This document shows, piece after piece, positions 3,611-27,925 of a DNA stretch of 64,000 nucleotides (positions within the stretch are counted from its first letter, which is position 1; every line of letters starts with the position of its first letter). Below the pieces are notes generated by a model that saw only the letters and a program-made list of their open reading frames with translations, searched no databases and was not told the origin of the DNA. Where the stretch lies: positions 372,001 to 436,000 of the forward strand of contig NZ_SRLB01000001.1 of NCBI RefSeq assembly GCF_004745635.1. The letters are read 5' to 3'. The translations under genes were made by a program, and so were the position numbers. The DNA is from Methylobacterium nonmethylotrophicum (lineage in GTDB: Bacteria > Pseudomonadota > Alphaproteobacteria > Rhizobiales > Beijerinckiaceae).

Positions 3611-5179
3611 ATGGCCACATTCGACCTGAACGACGACGGCCTCGTCGTCATCGTCGGCTCGGGCGCCGGCGGCGGCACGCTCGGCACCGAGCTGGCGCTC
3701 AAGGGGATCCGCACCGTCATCCTCGAGGCGGGCGCCCGCCACAACATGGAGGATTTCGTCAACGACGAGTGGGCGAGCTTCGCGCAGCTCGCCTGGACCG
3801 ACATGCGCACCACCTCCGGCTCCTGGCGGGTGGCGCGGGACTTCCCCAACCTGCCGGCCTGGATCGTCAAGGCGGTGGGCGGCTCGACGGTGCACTGGGC
3901 CGGCGCGTCCTTGCGCTTCGAGGAGCACGAGTTCCGCATCCGCGACCATTACGGCGCGATGCCGGGCGCCAACCTCCTCGACTGGCCGATCACCCGGGCC
4001 GAGCTCGACCCCTGGTACGAGAAGGCCGAGGACCGGATGGGCGTGACCCGCACCAACGGCATCCAGGGCCTGCCGGGCAACAACAACTTCAAGGTGCTGG
4101 AGGCCGGGGCGCGCCGGGTCGGCTACAAGGAGGTCCATACCGGCCGCATGGCGATCAACAGCCAGGAGCGCCACGACCGCGGCGCGTGCCAGCAGATCGG
4201 CTTCTGCTTCCAGGGCTGCAAGTCGGGCGCCAAGTGGTCGACGCTCATCGCCGAGATCCCCCGCGGCGAGGAGACCGGCAACCTGGAGGTCCGCCCGAAC
4301 TGCATGGTCATCCGCATCGAGCACGACGCGTCCGGCAAGGTGACGGGCGTGGTCTACGCCGACGAGAAGGGCAATCTGCAGCGCCAGAAGGCCCGCATCG
4401 TCGCGGTGGCCGGCAACTCGATCGAGAGCCCGCGGCTCCTGCTCAACAGCGCCTCGAACCTGTTTCCGGACGGGCTGGCCAATTCCTCGGGCCAGGTCGG
4501 CCGCAACTACATGCGCCACATGACCGGCAGCGTCTACGGCGTGTTCGAGAAGTCGGTGCACATGTACCGCGGCACCACCATGGCGGGCATCGTCCGCGAC
4601 GAGGCCCGGCACGACCCGAAGCGCGGCTTCGCCGGCGGCTACGAGATGGAGACCCTCTCCCTCGGCGTGCCGTTCATGGCGGCGTTCCTCAATCCCGGCG
4701 CCTGGGGCCGCTCCTTCACCAGCGCCATGGAGCAGTACCCGCGCATGGCCGGGATGTGGCTCGTCGGCGAGGACATGCCGCAGGAGACGAACCGCATCAC
4801 CCTCGACCCCGCGGTGAAGGACAAGCACGGCATGCCGGTGGCGAGCGTGCACTTCGACGACCATCCCAACGACGTCGCGATGCGCAACCACGCCTACAGG
4901 CAGGGCGCGGCGATCTACGAGGCGGTCGGCGCCACCGTCACCTACCCGGTCACGCCCTATCCGAGCACCCACAACATGGGCACCAACCGGATGAGCGCGA
5001 AGGCCCGGGACGGCGTGGTCAACAAGTTCGGCCAGACCCACGACGTGAAGAACCTGTTCGTCTCCGACGGCAGCCAGTTCACCTCGGGGGCCGCCTGCAA
5101 CCCGACCCTCACCATCGTGGCGCTCGCCCTGCGCCAGGCCGACCACATCGCCGGCGCGATGCAGCGGCGGGAGATCTGA
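3611..5179 (+). CDS. GMC-family FAD-dependent dehydrogenase, catalytic subunit
   Basis: A 522-residue flavoprotein. Residues ~11-40 hold the FAD-binding Rossmann motif (VIVGSGAGGGTLG...VILEAG), followed by the GMC signature GGSTVHWAGA near residue 95. The C-terminal STHNMGT and AACNPTLT segments supply the expected catalytic His and Asn. Cys193, Cys199 and Cys203 form C-x5-C-x3-C, the spacing reported for the 3Fe-4S cluster of gamma-alpha FAD-glucose dehydrogenases. It lacks its own signal peptide, so it probably travels with the Tat-tagged partner upstream and oxidises a sugar or alcohol in the periplasm. No cytochrome c subunit (no CxxCH protein) is encoded beside it. The ATG follows a strong GGAGGAA. 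Confidence 0.88.
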   Translation: MATFDLNDDGLVVIVGSGAGGGTLGTELALKGIRTVILEAGARHNMEDFVNDEWASFAQLAWTDMRTTSGSWRVARDFPNLPAWIVKAVGGSTVHWAGASLRFEEHEFRIRDHYGAMPGANLLDWPITRAELDPWYEKAEDRMGVTRTNGIQGLPGNNNFKVLEAGARRVGYKEVHTGRMAINSQERHDRGACQQIGFCFQGCKSGAKWSTLIAEIPRGEETGNLEVRPNCMVIRIEHDASGKVTGVVYADEKGNLQRQKARIVAVAGNSIESPRLLLNSASNLFPDGLANSSGQVGRNYMRHMTGSVYGVFEKSVHMYRGTTMAGIVRDEARHDPKRGFAGGYEMETLSLGVPFMAAFLNPGAWGRSFTSAMEQYPRMAGMWLVGEDMPQETNRITLDPAVKDKHGMPVASVHFDDHPNDVAMRNHAYRQGAAIYEAVGATVTYPVTPYPSTHNMGTNRMSAKARDGVVNKFGQTHDVKNLFVSDGSQFTSGAACNPTLTIVALALRQADHIAGAMQRREI

Positions 5180-9337: not shown

Positions 9338-12124
<2,787 letters not shown>

Positions 12125-23715: not shown

Positions 23716-25140
23716 TCAGGCGTGGCGGCGGCGTAGCCGGCGCCAGCCGAGAACGACGCCGCTCGTCGCGATGACCAGGCCGAGGGCGCTCGCCGCGCCG
23801 ACCACGGCCTGCCGTACCACCGGATGCCGCGCCAGCGGACCGGCATCGAGCGTGTGGAGCGCGTCGAACAGCCAGCGGCTCGCCCGCCCGCTGCGGTCGA
23901 TCCGCCCCAGGATCGCGCCGGTGACGGGGTCGAGGTGGATCCAGGTCGCGGCCGGATCGTCGAAGCCGAGGCGCAGGACCGGCAGGGGAGGTGTCCCGCT
24001 CCGGTCGTACCAGTAATCGTCCGGCGCCTCGAGGCGGGTCGCCGACCGGAGCGCCGCCCCCGGCAGCATCGCCCGGCCGGCTGCGACGACTTCCTCCTCC
24101 GTCAGGGCGGTGCCGCAGCACGGGCCGGCGCCCTCGCGTCCAAGCGCGGTGACGAGCGGCCGGCCGCCGATCCAGGCGAGATCGAGTGCCAGGGTGCCGG
24201 CCGGCGCCCGCGCGAGGGCGTCGAGGCCGAGGGGAAAGACCGGTGCCGCCTGGCCCGCATAGGCCGCCCGCATGGCGGCGTCGGGCGCGCGCGGGCCGAA
24301 CCAGCCGCGCGGGTTCATCGACAGCCAGCCGCTCAGCAGGAAGGTGACGAGGACGAGCCCGCCCGCCACCCCCGCGAGGTGGTGCCAGGCGGCCCAGCCG
24401 CGATAGGGGGTCAGCCGGCCGCGCATCAGCCGGAGGAAGCCCAGGAGCGTGCCGCTCGCCCCCGCCGCAAGGGCGAGGCCGGAGAGCCAGAGCACCGCGT
24501 CGCGCCACAGCCCCTCCCGGGCCCGCAGGGGCGTGAGGTAGATCCAGTGGGTCACGGCGCCGATCCAGTTCCACGCCCGCTCGGCCCGGGTGGTGTCGAG
24601 GACGAGCTCGCCGGTCGGCACCGACAGGTAGAGCTCGGTCCCGGCCGGGTCGCCGAGGGCCACGCGCCGGAACGGGCGCAGCGGGTCGTAGCGCGCGGTC
24701 ACGGTCCATTGGTCGCGGGTCACCGGGCCGAGATCCCTGACCTGCCTGGCCGCCGGGTGGGTGGCGGCGAGGGCCACGGCGCCCTCCGGGGTCAGCGGCG
24801 GGACGGGATCACCGGTCACGGCCGAGAGCGCGCGGCGGCGCCCCTCGGGACCGGTGATCCAATAGACGGGCTCGGATCCCCGCATCGCCAGGGTGAAGCG
24901 GGCCGGAAAGCCCGCGAGGCCTGCCCGCTCCAGGACCTCCTGCGGCGTCAGCCGCACGGCCGCGAGGGCGAGCGGCGGCAGGGCCGCCCGCCGCTCGCCC
25001 TCGGTGAGGGCCGGGAAGCCGACGAACAGCATCACCAGCCCCGAGACGAGCCAGGCGACGACGAGGAGCCCGGTGACGATGCCGAGCCAGCGGTGGCCGA
25101 GATGCAGCCACCGTTTCAGGCGCTTGACCGCGGTCCGCAT
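23716..25140 (-). CDS. PepSY-associated membrane protein
   Basis: A 474-residue inner-membrane protein with about four helices. The first is in 'HRWLGIVTGLLVVAWLVSG' and the others lie around residues 185-215, 245-275 and 435-460, with large periplasmic PepSY-type segments between. The HxGxRWLG-type N terminus and 'VTGDPVPPLTPEGA' / 'DPVTGAILGRID' PepSY motifs are typical of proteins encoded beside TonB-dependent siderophore receptors. They are proposed to handle reduction or release of imported metal complexes. The ATG overlaps the stop of the TonB receptor by one base, so it is translationally coupled. Confidence 0.88.
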   Translation of the reverse strand: MRTAVKRLKRWLHLGHRWLGIVTGLLVVAWLVSGLVMLFVGFPALTEGERRAALPPLALAAVRLTPQEVLERAGLAGFPARFTLAMRGSEPVYWITGPEGRRRALSAVTGDPVPPLTPEGAVALAATHPAARQVRDLGPVTRDQWTVTARYDPLRPFRRVALGDPAGTELYLSVPTGELVLDTTRAERAWNWIGAVTHWIYLTPLRAREGLWRDAVLWLSGLALAAGASGTLLGFLRLMRGRLTPYRGWAAWHHLAGVAGGLVLVTFLLSGWLSMNPRGWFGPRAPDAAMRAAYAGQAAPVFPLGLDALARAPAGTLALDLAWIGGRPLVTALGREGAGPCCGTALTEEEVVAAGRAMLPGAALRSATRLEAPDDYWYDRSGTPPLPVLRLGFDDPAATWIHLDPVTGAILGRIDRSGRASRWLFDALHTLDAGPLARHPVVRQAVVGAASALGLVIATSGVVLGWRRLRRRHA

Positions 25141-27275
25141 CAGAACGTGACGTGGTAGGCGAGCTCGACCGAGCGCGGGCGGCCGAGCAGCCAGGAATTG
25201 CTGTTGCCCGACACCGCGTAGAGCTGGTCGGTGAGGTTAGTGCCGCGCAGGGACAGGCGCGAGGTCGGGGTCACCTGCCAGTCCAGGGTGGCGTTGAGCA
25301 GCGTGTAGCCCGGCCGGCGCACCGCGTTGGCGAAGTCGCTGAAGACCGGCCCGACGTCGTTGACGCCGAGCCGTGCCACCCAGCCCGGCGCGAAGGCAAA
25401 GCTGAGCCAGACATTGGTGACCCGCTGGGGCACGTCGACCGGCACCCTGCCGGCGAACGACACCAGCGCGCCGTCGATCGTTTGCGAGAAATTGTCGTAG
25501 CGGGCCCGCAAGAGGGCGGTATTGGCCTCGATGCGCCAGGCCTCCGACAGCCGGTAGGCGAAGGCGACCTCGACGCCGCGCGACGACTGGCTGCCGACCG
25601 CGGCGACCTCCGTCGGCCGGTCGGGGATCGGGGTCAGCAGGTTGTCCTTGCGGATGTGGTAGGCGGCGAAGGTCCACTCGCCGCGACCATTGTCGAACAG
25701 GCCCTTTGCGCCGGCCTCGACCTGCTCGCCCGTGGCGAGCCCGAACTGGGATTGCGCCACGCTGGTGGTGACCAGGCTGCCGAGCGGGTCGGCGGCGGTG
25801 GCGACTTGCGCGTAGAGCGCGAAGTCGGGCACCGGCGTGTAGACGGCGCCGACCCGGTAGCTGACCGAGTCGAAGGTCTTCTCGAAGCGGGATGCCGCGA
25901 GCGGCCGGCTCACCGACACGGTGGGCGCGTCGTAGCGGACACCCGTCACGAGGGCGAGCTGGGGCGTCAGCTCGAGCCGGTTCTCGGCGAAGACCGAGGC
26001 CTGGCGGGTGCGCGAGACGATGTCGGTGCGGGTGCCCGCGAGGTTGATGAAGCGGCCCTGCGCGACGATGAACGGATCGACGAAGCTCTCGCCGCCGAAG
26101 GGCGCATTGCTGTCGCGCCGGAAGTCGATGTGATTGACGTCGAAGCCGACGAGCGAGGTGGTCTTGAGGCCGAACAGGCTGCCCCGGAAGGTCGCATCGA
26201 GGCGGTTGCCGATCTGCTCCTCGCGGTGAACGATCTCGATGTAGTCGTCGCGCCGGATCAGGCCGGTCGCGGGCTGGTAGGTGTATTGCTCCACGTCGCG
26301 CCAGTGCCGCTCGGTGGACAGGCGGTAGGCGGTGTTGCGCACCGTGATGTCCGGGCTCGGGTTCCACTCGGTGCGCAGTTGAGTCCAGTTGTCGAACCAG
26401 GCGATCTGCGAGTCCTGGACATTGTAGTTGGTGAAGCGCAGCCGGTCGGGCACCCGGGTGCCGACGAGCGGCGAGCCCCAGTAGCGCGTCGGCTCGTTGT
26501 GGCCGAGGTCGTGCGAGAGCGTGACGCTCAGGTCGGGCGTCGCCCGCCAGGTCAATGCGGCCGAGAGGGCGAGATTGCGAAAATCCCCGTCCGGCCGCAC
26601 CCAGCCGCCGGCCCGGTTGCCGCTGAGGTTGAACCGGTAGGCCATGGCCTCGCTGACCGGCCCGCCGCTGTCGAGGGCGAGGCGCGCGACGCCGTCCTGG
26701 CCGATCGCCGCCCGTGCCTCGCCGACAGGGGAGAAGACCGGCTTCTTCGGCACCACGTTGATGATGCCGCCGATGGCGCCCTCGCCGTAGAGCACCGAGG
26801 CCGGGCCGCGCAGCACCTCGATCCGCTCCGCCGACCAGGTGTCGAACGGGAAGGTGACGGTGCCGGCCCCGACATAGAGCCGCGTGCCGTCATAGAGCTG
26901 CTGCACCGAGCTCGGGCCGGCGAATCCCCGGGCCGTGAAGGCGAGGTTGCCGTTGCCGGGCGCCGCGACGCTGGTGATGCCGACGGCGTTCTGGGTCACC
27001 GCCTCCTCGATCGTGGTCTGGCCCCGCGCCCGGATGGTCTCGCCCGCGATGATGTCGAGGCTCGCCGGGGTTTCGAGCGGGGTCAGGCCGAGGCGGCTGC
27101 CGGAGCGCGAGGTCGTCGCAAGGTTGAGGCCCAGGGCGGCCTCGCGGTTGCGGCCGCCCGCGACCTCGATGACGTCGAGGGCGATGTCGTCCGCGGCGCC
27201 GGGCGCGGCGGCGAAGAGCGGAGCGGCGAGGCTGGCGGCGAAGGTGGTCGAGCGGCGGGCGCGGCGCGCGGGCAT
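25140..27275 (-). CDS. TonB-dependent outer-membrane receptor
   Basis: A 711-residue receptor. Signal peptide to ~residue 28, then a short 'ALDVIEVAGGRNR' TonB-box-like region, a plug domain (~50-180: 'LTPLETPASLDIIAGETI', 'ERIEVLRGPASVLYGEGAIG', 'GIINVVPKKP'), then a 22-strand barrel ending in the aromatic outer-membrane signal YHVTF. The plug sequence resembles siderophore/ferrichrome-type receptors (FhuA/FoxA group). However, upstream lie a cobalamin riboswitch and a separate palindromic operator, so the cargo could be a metal complex other than Fe(III)-siderophore. It is the first gene of the pair with the PepSY protein. Confidence 0.9.
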   Translation of the reverse strand: MPARRARRSTTFAASLAAPLFAAAPGAADDIALDVIEVAGGRNREAALGLNLATTSRSGSRLGLTPLETPASLDIIAGETIRARGQTTIEEAVTQNAVGITSVAAPGNGNLAFTARGFAGPSSVQQLYDGTRLYVGAGTVTFPFDTWSAERIEVLRGPASVLYGEGAIGGIINVVPKKPVFSPVGEARAAIGQDGVARLALDSGGPVSEAMAYRFNLSGNRAGGWVRPDGDFRNLALSAALTWRATPDLSVTLSHDLGHNEPTRYWGSPLVGTRVPDRLRFTNYNVQDSQIAWFDNWTQLRTEWNPSPDITVRNTAYRLSTERHWRDVEQYTYQPATGLIRRDDYIEIVHREEQIGNRLDATFRGSLFGLKTTSLVGFDVNHIDFRRDSNAPFGGESFVDPFIVAQGRFINLAGTRTDIVSRTRQASVFAENRLELTPQLALVTGVRYDAPTVSVSRPLAASRFEKTFDSVSYRVGAVYTPVPDFALYAQVATAADPLGSLVTTSVAQSQFGLATGEQVEAGAKGLFDNGRGEWTFAAYHIRKDNLLTPIPDRPTEVAAVGSQSSRGVEVAFAYRLSEAWRIEANTALLRARYDNFSQTIDGALVSFAGRVPVDVPQRVTNVWLSFAFAPGWVARLGVNDVGPVFSDFANAVRRPGYTLLNATLDWQVTPTSRLSLRGTNLTDQLYAVSGNSNSWLLGRPRSVELAYHVTF

Positions 27276-27322
27276 GAGAGAGTCCGAAGCAGGCAGTCGC
27301 CCCATCCCTACCCGCTCTCGCC

Positions 27323-27352
27323 AGATATGTAACGTTATAAAGTTACATATCT
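27323..27352. promoter_or_regulatory. Palindromic operator before the TonB receptor
   Basis: A perfect inverted repeat, AGATATGTAAC (27323-27333) and GTTACATATCT (27342-27352), separated by GTTATAAA, 47 bp upstream of the receptor start. It is A/T-rich in a very G/C-rich genome. The size and symmetry suit a dimeric repressor. The GTTATA core resembles Zur-type zinc-uptake operators, but the exact regulator is a guess. Confidence 0.75.
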
Positions 27353-27550
27353 GCATTCCAGGCCGACGCGGCGGGCGAGCCGGGCGCGGGACGCGCGCCG
27401 GACCGGCGGGTCGGGGGAGGGCGGCGGCAGGCATGGCGGGACGGCACGAGGCTGTGGCACGTCACCGCGAACGACGGCGCGACGACGGCCTGCGCCGACG
27501 CCTCGACACCCATCAGGACACCCCGCCCGACGTGCTCGCGTGTGACCACG

Positions 27551-27722
27551 GCTGACGGCAGGTCTCCTGGCTCACGGGTCAGCGCCCGCCATCGTCTTCC
27601 CAGGGAGGGTTCAGGTCCCCAGTGACTCAGGTGATGGAAGGCTCGCCGCTCACAGTTGCGGGGGCAGCCGCGGCCTCGGGCAAGCCCTCACCGCGTTCCC
27701 TTTTGATCCCCGAAGGGAACCG
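27551..27722 (-). ncRNA. Cobalamin riboswitch
   Basis: On the minus strand the order is AAAAGGGAACGCGGTGA, then GCTGCCCCCGCAACTGTGA (the B12-box region, 27650-27668), a CACTGG...CTGGGAAG segment, and finally GAGCCAGGAGACCTGCC (27557-27573). These are the universally conserved elements of the AdoCbl riboswitch in the right order and spacing. The first plausible gene downstream on this strand is the TonB receptor, about 275 bp from the 3' end of the element. The palindromic operator lies between them. Confidence 0.92.
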
Positions 27723-27881
27723 TCGGACGGAAGCTTAGCGGTTCGATCACGAAGGAGCAATGGTGGCAGCGGACGAGATCGTCCCCATCGGCTGACCGCC
27801 CCCAACCCTCCGCCACAGAGGGGCTTGCAGATTCACCCATCGCTTCTGAAGCCCAGCCCATTGTGAGGACGCGCACTTTTC

Positions 27882-27925
27882 CCTCCCCAGGCGATCTCGG
27901 GCGTGCCCGAGATCGCCTGGGGAGG
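27882..27925. repeat. 21-bp perfect hairpin
   Basis: The two arms (27882-27902 and 27905-27925) are exact reverse complements with a two-base loop; the arm centre reads CAGGCGATCTCGGGC. It lies between the minus-strand riboswitch and the plus-strand ABC gene. It may be a REP-like element or a terminator; there is no T tract on either side. Confidence 0.8.

Follow-up and report, generated by a model that had tools for sequence, protein, structure and literature searches.

We found a metal-receptor operon, made up of a TonB-dependent receptor gene and a PepSY_TM gene, behind two stacked control elements, a cobalamin riboswitch and a palindrome that is very probably a Zur (zinc) box. The operon is probably under two independent shortage signals that act on two transcripts. 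The layered control is real and conserved, and its parts are of known kinds; what is unusual is their stacking and a start codon that has been displaced from the receptor yet kept. The aptamer, the conserved platform behind it, the match to a zinc-transporter motif, the layout, the upstream start codon and the spread of the arrangement in the genus can all be read directly from the DNA.

The window (the whole stretch of 64,000 nt that was analysed) comes from a 7.8 Mb genome whose closest named relatives at the receptor locus are Methylobacterium species. On the minus strand the riboswitch (27739-27540) is followed by the palindrome (27353-27322), the receptor (from 27275) and the PepSY_TM gene (Table 1). 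The two open reading frames share one base, 25140, and a PepSY_TM relative is present at 35 of 41 loci. The first-pass annotation, made from the letters alone, had placed the palindrome 47 bp from the receptor ATG (27275) and the end of its riboswitch about 275 bp upstream, and both distances are correct. Its reading of two controls, a Zur-like operator and a siderophore-type receptor stands, while the riboswitch serving a lost gene, which it had offered as an alternative, is not supported.

Table 1. Coordinates of the leader elements and genes at the receptor locus
Feature	Position	Strand	Remark
Candidate promoter P1 of the riboswitch transcript	27732..27760	-	TTGCTC (27760-27755), 17 nt, TAAGCT (27737-27732)
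Cobalamin riboswitch aptamer	27540..27739	-	RF00174, 130.3 bits, full length
GTGGTCACACGCGA, 5' arm of long-range pairing, candidate anti-sequestor	27536..27549	-	Pairing partner at 27454-27471 (consensus fold, 39 sequences)
Platform element TTCGCGGTGACGTGCCAC, 3' arm of long-range pairing	27454..27471	-	Element or near copy in 39/42 sequences
Upstream start codon ATG	27432..27434	-	+37 from the element; position of the receptor start in Bradyrhizobium
Predicted Zur box, 12+8+12 perfect palindrome	27322..27353	.	Best match in the window to the zinc-transporter promoter motif, 18.6 bits
Candidate promoter P2 overlapping the Zur box	27305..27333	-	GTTACA (27333-27328), 17 nt, TAGGGA (27310-27305)
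TonB-dependent receptor, CrtA-related	25140..27275	-	PF07715, PF00593, TIGR01783; nearest solved chain 9rvq, 360 bits
PepSY_TM inner-membrane protein	23716..25140	-	PF03929 48.3 bits, cut-off 28.8

A cobalamin aptamer is followed by a conserved platform of TonB receptor genes

A covariance-model search matched RF00174 over model positions 1-189 (gathering score 31.5, E 1.8e-32), and the AdoCbl riboswitch called earlier at 27551-27722 falls within this full-length match. By the curated covariance cut-off the aptamer belongs to RF00174; cobalamin binding and a change in expression are predicted. The RF00174 aptamer recurred in all seven close relatives (124-134 bits) and in 8 of the 11 other loci scanned. 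For the 23 loci outside the Rfam scan (L012-L027, L030, L034, L037, L039, L042-L044), the presence of the riboswitch was judged from conserved motifs and the platform. No intrinsic terminator was found in the window leader, and free-energy folds of the full leader were uninformative.

Behind the aptamer end, 39 of 42 sequences (the window plus 41 loci) share one order of elements or near copies of them: GTGGTCACACGCGA, an inner hairpin, a variable hairpin and TTCGCGGTGACGTGCCAC. The last element is absent from L029, which lacks upstream sequence, and from L036 and L038. Platform bases are near-invariant. In the consensus fold 15 base pairs join the outer elements, and the two outer helices have 99.5% and 100% of their cells paired. 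The inner hairpins covary, with 46 cells changed on both sides against a shuffle mean of 10.7 and none of 500 shuffles as high; the outer long pairing is almost invariant, and covariation there speaks neither for nor against it. Alternatively, TTCGCGGTGACGTGCCAC may form a hairpin (27468-27436) with the bases immediately ahead of the upstream start codon. Measured against shuffles, this hairpin is weak in the window (z -1.4) and not clearly more stable across Methylobacterium (z -2.2 to +0.5), and it is distinct only in three Bradyrhizobium sequences (z -4.9, -5.4 and -2.6), where it ends shortly before the start codon.

A model of the platform, R1, matched 57 of 297 genomes of the order, in 21 of 122 genera. 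At 28 of the 30 loci returned, an open reading frame of at least 300 codons starts no more than 30 nt from the end of the model, and all 27 frames scanned were TonB receptors (the own locus, L140, was left out, as were L138 and L150 with their short frames). Since the frames behind it are TonB receptors, the platform is a predicted start-codon switch of TonB receptors that is wider than this gene. The platform is not exclusive to the receptor studied here, as other TonB receptors share it. What appears to be new here is this conserved RNA platform behind the aptamer, which ends at the TonB receptor start codon in Bradyrhizobium and other Rhizobiales.

Such a direct layout, with 36-45 nt from the start of the element to that of the receptor, occurs in Bradyrhizobium, Tardiphaga, a Hyphomicrobiales MAG and the Methylobacterium loci L028 and L040, and none of these leaders contains a match to the Zur motif described below. 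Because Bradyrhizobium, Tardiphaga and other relatives of the receptor have the same riboswitch and platform right before the receptor start, the B12 link of the receptor is old, and the idea that the riboswitch once belonged to a gene now lost finds no support. Our locus resembles RF00174-controlled TonB receptors in its aptamer, in the placement before an outer-membrane receptor and in a platform that ends at a start codon. It differs from them in that this start codon is not the receptor's own, a candidate Zur-box promoter lies between the two, and the receptor is not of the BtuB kind.

A search of the own genome reported two cobalamin riboswitches, neither of them at the ZnuD-type gene described below. 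The second (L002:1501-1700, contig C15) stands before CobW- and CobN-type genes. The TonB-type platform was not found there: the single match of R1 in the own genome is the one in the window, and the element is absent from L002.

The palindrome is very probably a Zur box

The palindrome reported earlier as 11+8+11, AGATATGTAAC-N8-GTTACATATCT at 27323-27352, is exact, and one further pair on each side extends it to 27322-27353. A search of the 7.8 Mb genome that allowed up to 3 mismatches over the 18 fixed bases found no second copy. To build a motif, we took the sequence upstream of the PF01297 gene, which encodes a zinc-type binding protein (AztC/ZnuA type), from 51 Methylobacterium genomes (58 have a PF01297 match, 7 of which were not fetched); the motif included no receptor site and was trained on 33 distinct 21-mers with 27 distinct 17-mer cores. 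In agreement with the earlier call of a Zur-like operator, this motif ranked the palindrome first in the 64 kb, the next separate site scoring 7.8 bits. The score of the window box was reached by none of 2000 dinucleotide shuffles of the 280-nt leader and by none of 50 shuffles of the whole window (highest 16.2). The half-site template used to pick the motif sites was written after the receptor sites had been seen; a template-free dyad search of the same 51 regions returned the same dyad, TGTAA-N5-TTACA, in 50 of them, with G+C-rich dyads in at most 29 and shuffles giving 18-22.

A match to the motif of at least 12 bits lies within 260 nt of the receptor at 30 of 33 Methylobacterium loci (the window, L005-L028, L030, L034, L037, L039, L040 and L042-L044; L029, with its upstream sequence missing, was left out). 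L039 has a weaker site of 9.5 bits, and no motif site was found in the receptor leaders of L028 and L040. At 25 of the 30 loci the site is unmatched by any other site of its locus, and none was found within 260 nt of the receptor in 8 loci of other genera. On the receptor tree the Zur label needs two changes, which could be two gains or else a gain and a loss. Zur sites of Paracoccus, one of them before aztA, were bound in gel shifts according to PMC5387054, and the window box agrees with five gel-shift-tested sites in Table 7 of that paper at 10-12 of 15 positions. Taken from these motif matches, the palindrome is very probably a Zur box, to which Zur is predicted to bind in a zinc-dependent manner.

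It is highly improbable that the palindrome is instead the operator of a non-Zur regulator, for example a TetR- or LysR-type protein or the product of the second Fur-family gene (contig C53). With its 8-nt spacer the window box differs in form from the sites of the zinc-transporter gene, and its score is lower than that of every one of the 27 training cores (lowest 24.3 bits). The presence of two Fur-family genes, with a Zur family score under its cut-off, would suit such a regulator; yet the zinc-transporter motif still ranks this box first, a genus-wide pattern matches the zinc-transporter gene, ZnuD-type genes and the receptor alike, and the sites tested in Paracoccus resemble it as stated above.

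Of the two Fur-family genes in the own genome, the one on contig C15 has Zur as its best family (NF008646, 91.5 bits, below the cut-off of 167) and adjoins a zinc-transporter ATPase gene (AztA, 220.4 bits against a cut-off of 220). We call its product a putative Zur because NF008646 is its best match and the AztA-type gene stands beside it; a homologue occurs in 59 of 59 genus genomes. The names znuA and znuC, considered for the zinc-transporter genes, were replaced by AztC/ZnuA type and AztA, as the ZnuA model gave 64.1 against a cut-off of 268; the product of the PF01297 gene is AztC-like at 310.2 bits, under the cut-off of 350. The intergenic region between zur and aztA (L055:4879-5177) contains GTTACAGTGTAAC, in which Zur half-sites are oppositely arranged. 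This motif is also found in five relatives and could not be fitted to the Zur-box model.

With a looser pattern, the own genome yielded the window box and two sites at and just before the start of a ZnuD-type TonB gene (2+2 strand hits; reversed control 1). That gene (L052:4259-6436, contig C48) has ZnuD as its best match (4rdr, E 4e-47), and NF038289 is its best family (252 bits, under the cut-off of 950). When 21 genus genomes were searched with a 16-base pattern, allowing no more than one mismatch, 17 of them gave a total of 28 hits, against none in the reversed control: 12 between platform and receptor, 9 before the AztC/ZnuA-type gene, 2 near ZnuD-type genes, 1 near another TonB gene and 4 unassigned. 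As the pattern was written after both kinds of site had been seen, the split between receptor and transporter is not independent, whereas the genome-wide rarity is. The own genome has no hit to this pattern, its box being a variant. The locus shares its motif with the ZnuD, Azt and Znu systems, as seen upstream of the AztC/ZnuA-type gene and at and just before the start of the own ZnuD-type gene. It is unlike ZnuD in that the window receptor is of another family and has a riboswitch in addition.

Separately, at least two Zur-like sites lie some kilobases downstream of the receptor in L012 (12020-12114), L013, L016, L018, L020, L021, L022, L026 and L044; those of L012 just precede a ZnuD-type gene (9862-12006, minus strand). 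In L036 (region 4073-4258), a single Rhodospirillaceae MAG in which the riboswitch was not found, a Zur-like site (20.8 bits, 0 of 1000 shuffles as high) lies 185 nt before the start of the receptor frame, and an upstream frame resembles an ABC permease by eye.

An upstream start codon is kept between platform and box

All 31 leaders with a Zur-type box, L039 included, have a start codon at +34 to +46 from the platform element (ATG in 26, GTG in 4, TTG in 1), an interval that was picked from the data. For comparison, the next four 13-nt windows contain an ATG in 1, 4, 2 and 2 of the 31 leaders, or an ATG or GTG in 2, 11, 6 and 2, and windows further downstream, where receptor starts begin, contain an ATG in 5 to 20. 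The receptor's own start lies past the Zur box in the Methylobacterium leaders with a box. Since the start codon is kept in every one of these leaders, with the Zur box, a candidate promoter and the receptor start all beyond it, the riboswitch probably governs an upstream frame, which in the window is in frame with the receptor and would add 53 codons to it.

In 7 of 8 close-clade leaders (the window and 6 of its 7 relatives) this frame runs on into the receptor, and the frame-keeping indels there may reflect chance or descent. The same fusion is seen in only 4 of 23 second-clade leaders; elsewhere the frame meets an early stop or overlaps the receptor out of frame (the TTG frame of L026 was not read in this comparison). 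We considered the 53-codon extension as protein-coding and found no support: the three codon positions vary alike, at 16/24, 18/23 and 14/23 before the box and at 11/16, 11/16 and 9/17 after it (L006 left out of the count). As the frame is mostly unfused in the second clade and carries no codon-position signal, the B12 branch may now be weak.

Taken further, this would mean that only the Zur promoter matters now and that the riboswitch is a leftover, with a meaningless upstream frame and a transcript that seldom reaches the receptor or leads to its translation. The variable length and phase of the second-clade frames and the extension without coding signal agree with such a decay, as does the N-terminus of the receptor at its own ATG, which by eye looks like a signal peptide that an N-terminal extension would bury. 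Even so, we consider this outcome unlikely, given that the aptamers of the seven relatives keep their high scores, the platform is near-invariant and the start codon is universal among the boxed leaders; together these suggest that selection still acts on the switch.

Candidate promoters point to two transcripts

Candidate promoters P1 and P2 were both read by eye and then counted. P1 was spotted in an alignment of 17 leaders, and 24 of 33 Methylobacterium leaders have its pattern, TTGNYS-N17-YAAGCT, at a near-fixed distance of 284-310 nt upstream of the platform element; the other 9 lack it. P2 takes the form [GA]TTACA-N17-TA[CG]GGA in 8 of 8 close-clade leaders; a second-clade form, TTG[TC]A[AG]-N17-TA, is found in 14 of 23 leaders and missing in 9, and the position of the promoter on the box differs between the two clades. 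A strict sigma-70 consensus scan of the leader reported no promoter. If P2 is real, its transcript would lack the riboswitch.

Two points go beyond the first-pass annotation. Because P2 overlaps the palindrome, the two controls probably act on two transcripts rather than in series, and the start codon at the riboswitch platform is an upstream one instead of that of the receptor. Control in series would make box-bound Zur a roadblock, such that the receptor needs low B12 as well as low zinc or that zinc overrides B12. Any transcript that is to reach the receptor from P1 does have to pass the box, but promoter-like sequence overlaps it in 22 of 31 leaders and would allow low-zinc expression without P1, and we regard AND-like control of this kind as improbable.

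The receptor is siderophore-type and probably imports a chelated metal

The receptor passes the siderophore-receptor model TIGR01783 (232.6 bits, cut-off 223.5) and falls far short of the B12-receptor model TIGR01779 (58.4 bits, cut-off 599.7), as expected from its initial description as siderophore-type and not BtuB-like. Among solved chains, 9RVQ ranked first, followed by CntO and FoxA at about 115 bits and BtuB at 28. CntO is a Zur-linked broad-metal receptor in Pseudomonas; both it, a metal-pseudopaline receptor, and FoxA are much more distant from our receptor than the first chain.

According to PMC12914433, 9RVQ is the chelated-copper receptor CrtA (CrtA/BfrG) of Bordetella pertussis, which has a PepSY_TM partner, and PepSY partners are known in copper and ferrioxamine systems. 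Besides being the closest solved match, CrtA has in common with our receptor the adjacent PepSY_TM gene and two site residues: the equivalents of His358, which is essential in CrtA, and of Glu337 are invariant in 11 of 11 relatives aligned. The full set of six ligand-site residues of CrtA (Y130, W265, E337, Q356, H358 and R395) is not kept in these relatives, where the Trp265 equivalent is W or F, all 11 have Ile at the place of Gln356, there is no conservation at Arg395 and the alignment at Tyr130 is ambiguous. The receptor further differs from CrtA in its B12 and zinc motifs, as against the copper-linked control reported for CrtA. It may work like a CrtA-type chelate importer, and we do not place it in the CrtA family.

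In other genera the neighbouring genes point to cobalamin and cobalt, as judged from family models. L045 (Bradyrhizobium macuxiense) has CobA/CobO-, CobQ-, CobU- and BluB-type genes before the receptor, all over their cut-offs, and L033 has a CobW-like GTPase neighbour, under its cut-off. Behind the receptor of L031 (Methyloligella) lie an ABC ATPase and a binding protein with corrinoid and siderophore models among their matches, none over its cut-off. These neighbours, along with the old riboswitch, would also fit a receptor that imports a corrinoid or a precursor rather than a metal chelate, the Zur box then reflecting some other need at low zinc. We think such a substrate doubtful: the scores against BtuB models and chains are far lower than those against CrtA and CntO, the partner is a PepSY protein as in the copper and ferrioxamine systems, and the histidine essential in CrtA is invariant. 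The receptor and its PepSY partner probably import a chelated divalent metal, either cobalt, zinc or both. As the old riboswitch suggests a substrate for the cobalt or B12 economy and the added Zur box suggests zinc as well, an importer of chelates of both metals would be the simplest common cause.

A model for two shortage signals

In the mechanism that we favour, P1 would give rise to a long transcript beginning at the edge of the AdoCbl riboswitch. In the absence of B12, GTGGTCACACGCGA would pair with TTCGCGGTGAC and leave the start codon at 27434 open, while on binding of AdoCbl the TTCGCGGTGAC element would be freed, pair with the bases before the 27434 codon and close it. This riboswitch-platform switch would be the ancestral switch of the receptor, behind which, in Methylobacterium, a segment of about 150 bp would supply the Zur box, P2 and the receptor's own start codon. 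When zinc is present, Zur on the box would block P2; when zinc is absent, a short riboswitch-free mRNA from P2 would yield the normal receptor. The long transcript would feed the receptor either as an N-extended product, in the window, or as translated, unterminated mRNA (an escape from Rho-type polarity), and the net logic would be a receptor that is on when B12 (cobalt) or zinc is low.

More tentatively, the locus could record a gene takeover from a riboswitch, in which a zinc-repressed promoter and a new start arose between the AdoCbl riboswitch and the receptor, perhaps twice in the genus. The old start codon would have been kept as a regulated upstream frame that decides, by readthrough or by an N-extended product, whether the B12-sensing transcript feeds the receptor, and the receptor would be an importer of cobalt and zinc. 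If this is true, the receptor would be a shared gateway of two metal economies.

With a riboswitch and a Zur-type box stacked on one receptor in 31 leaders of the genus, the locus offers a testable case of the joining of a vitamin signal and a zinc signal. It bears on how a protein-controlled promoter comes between a riboswitch and its gene, and on what keeps a riboswitch once its start codon no longer starts that gene. For unassigned pairs of receptor and PepSY protein it raises the hypothesis that cobalt or zinc chelates are the substrate, and it adds a riboswitch platform that is conserved ahead of TonB receptors in several genera of Rhizobiales. In a full-text literature search, with most subscription papers outside its scope, no paper describing the pairing of a riboswitch with Zur was among the matches listed, and the combination of 'cobalamin riboswitch' and 'Zur box' was not found.

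A further repeat lies upstream of the riboswitch, at 27885-27922, as a perfect inverted repeat with arms of CCCCAGGCGATCTCGGGC and beyond. With up to 2 mismatches allowed, its half-site was matched 27 times in the genome (reversed control 0), and at four places it forms inverted pairs at a distance of 20 bp, which suggests a dispersed palindromic repeat or a terminator family.
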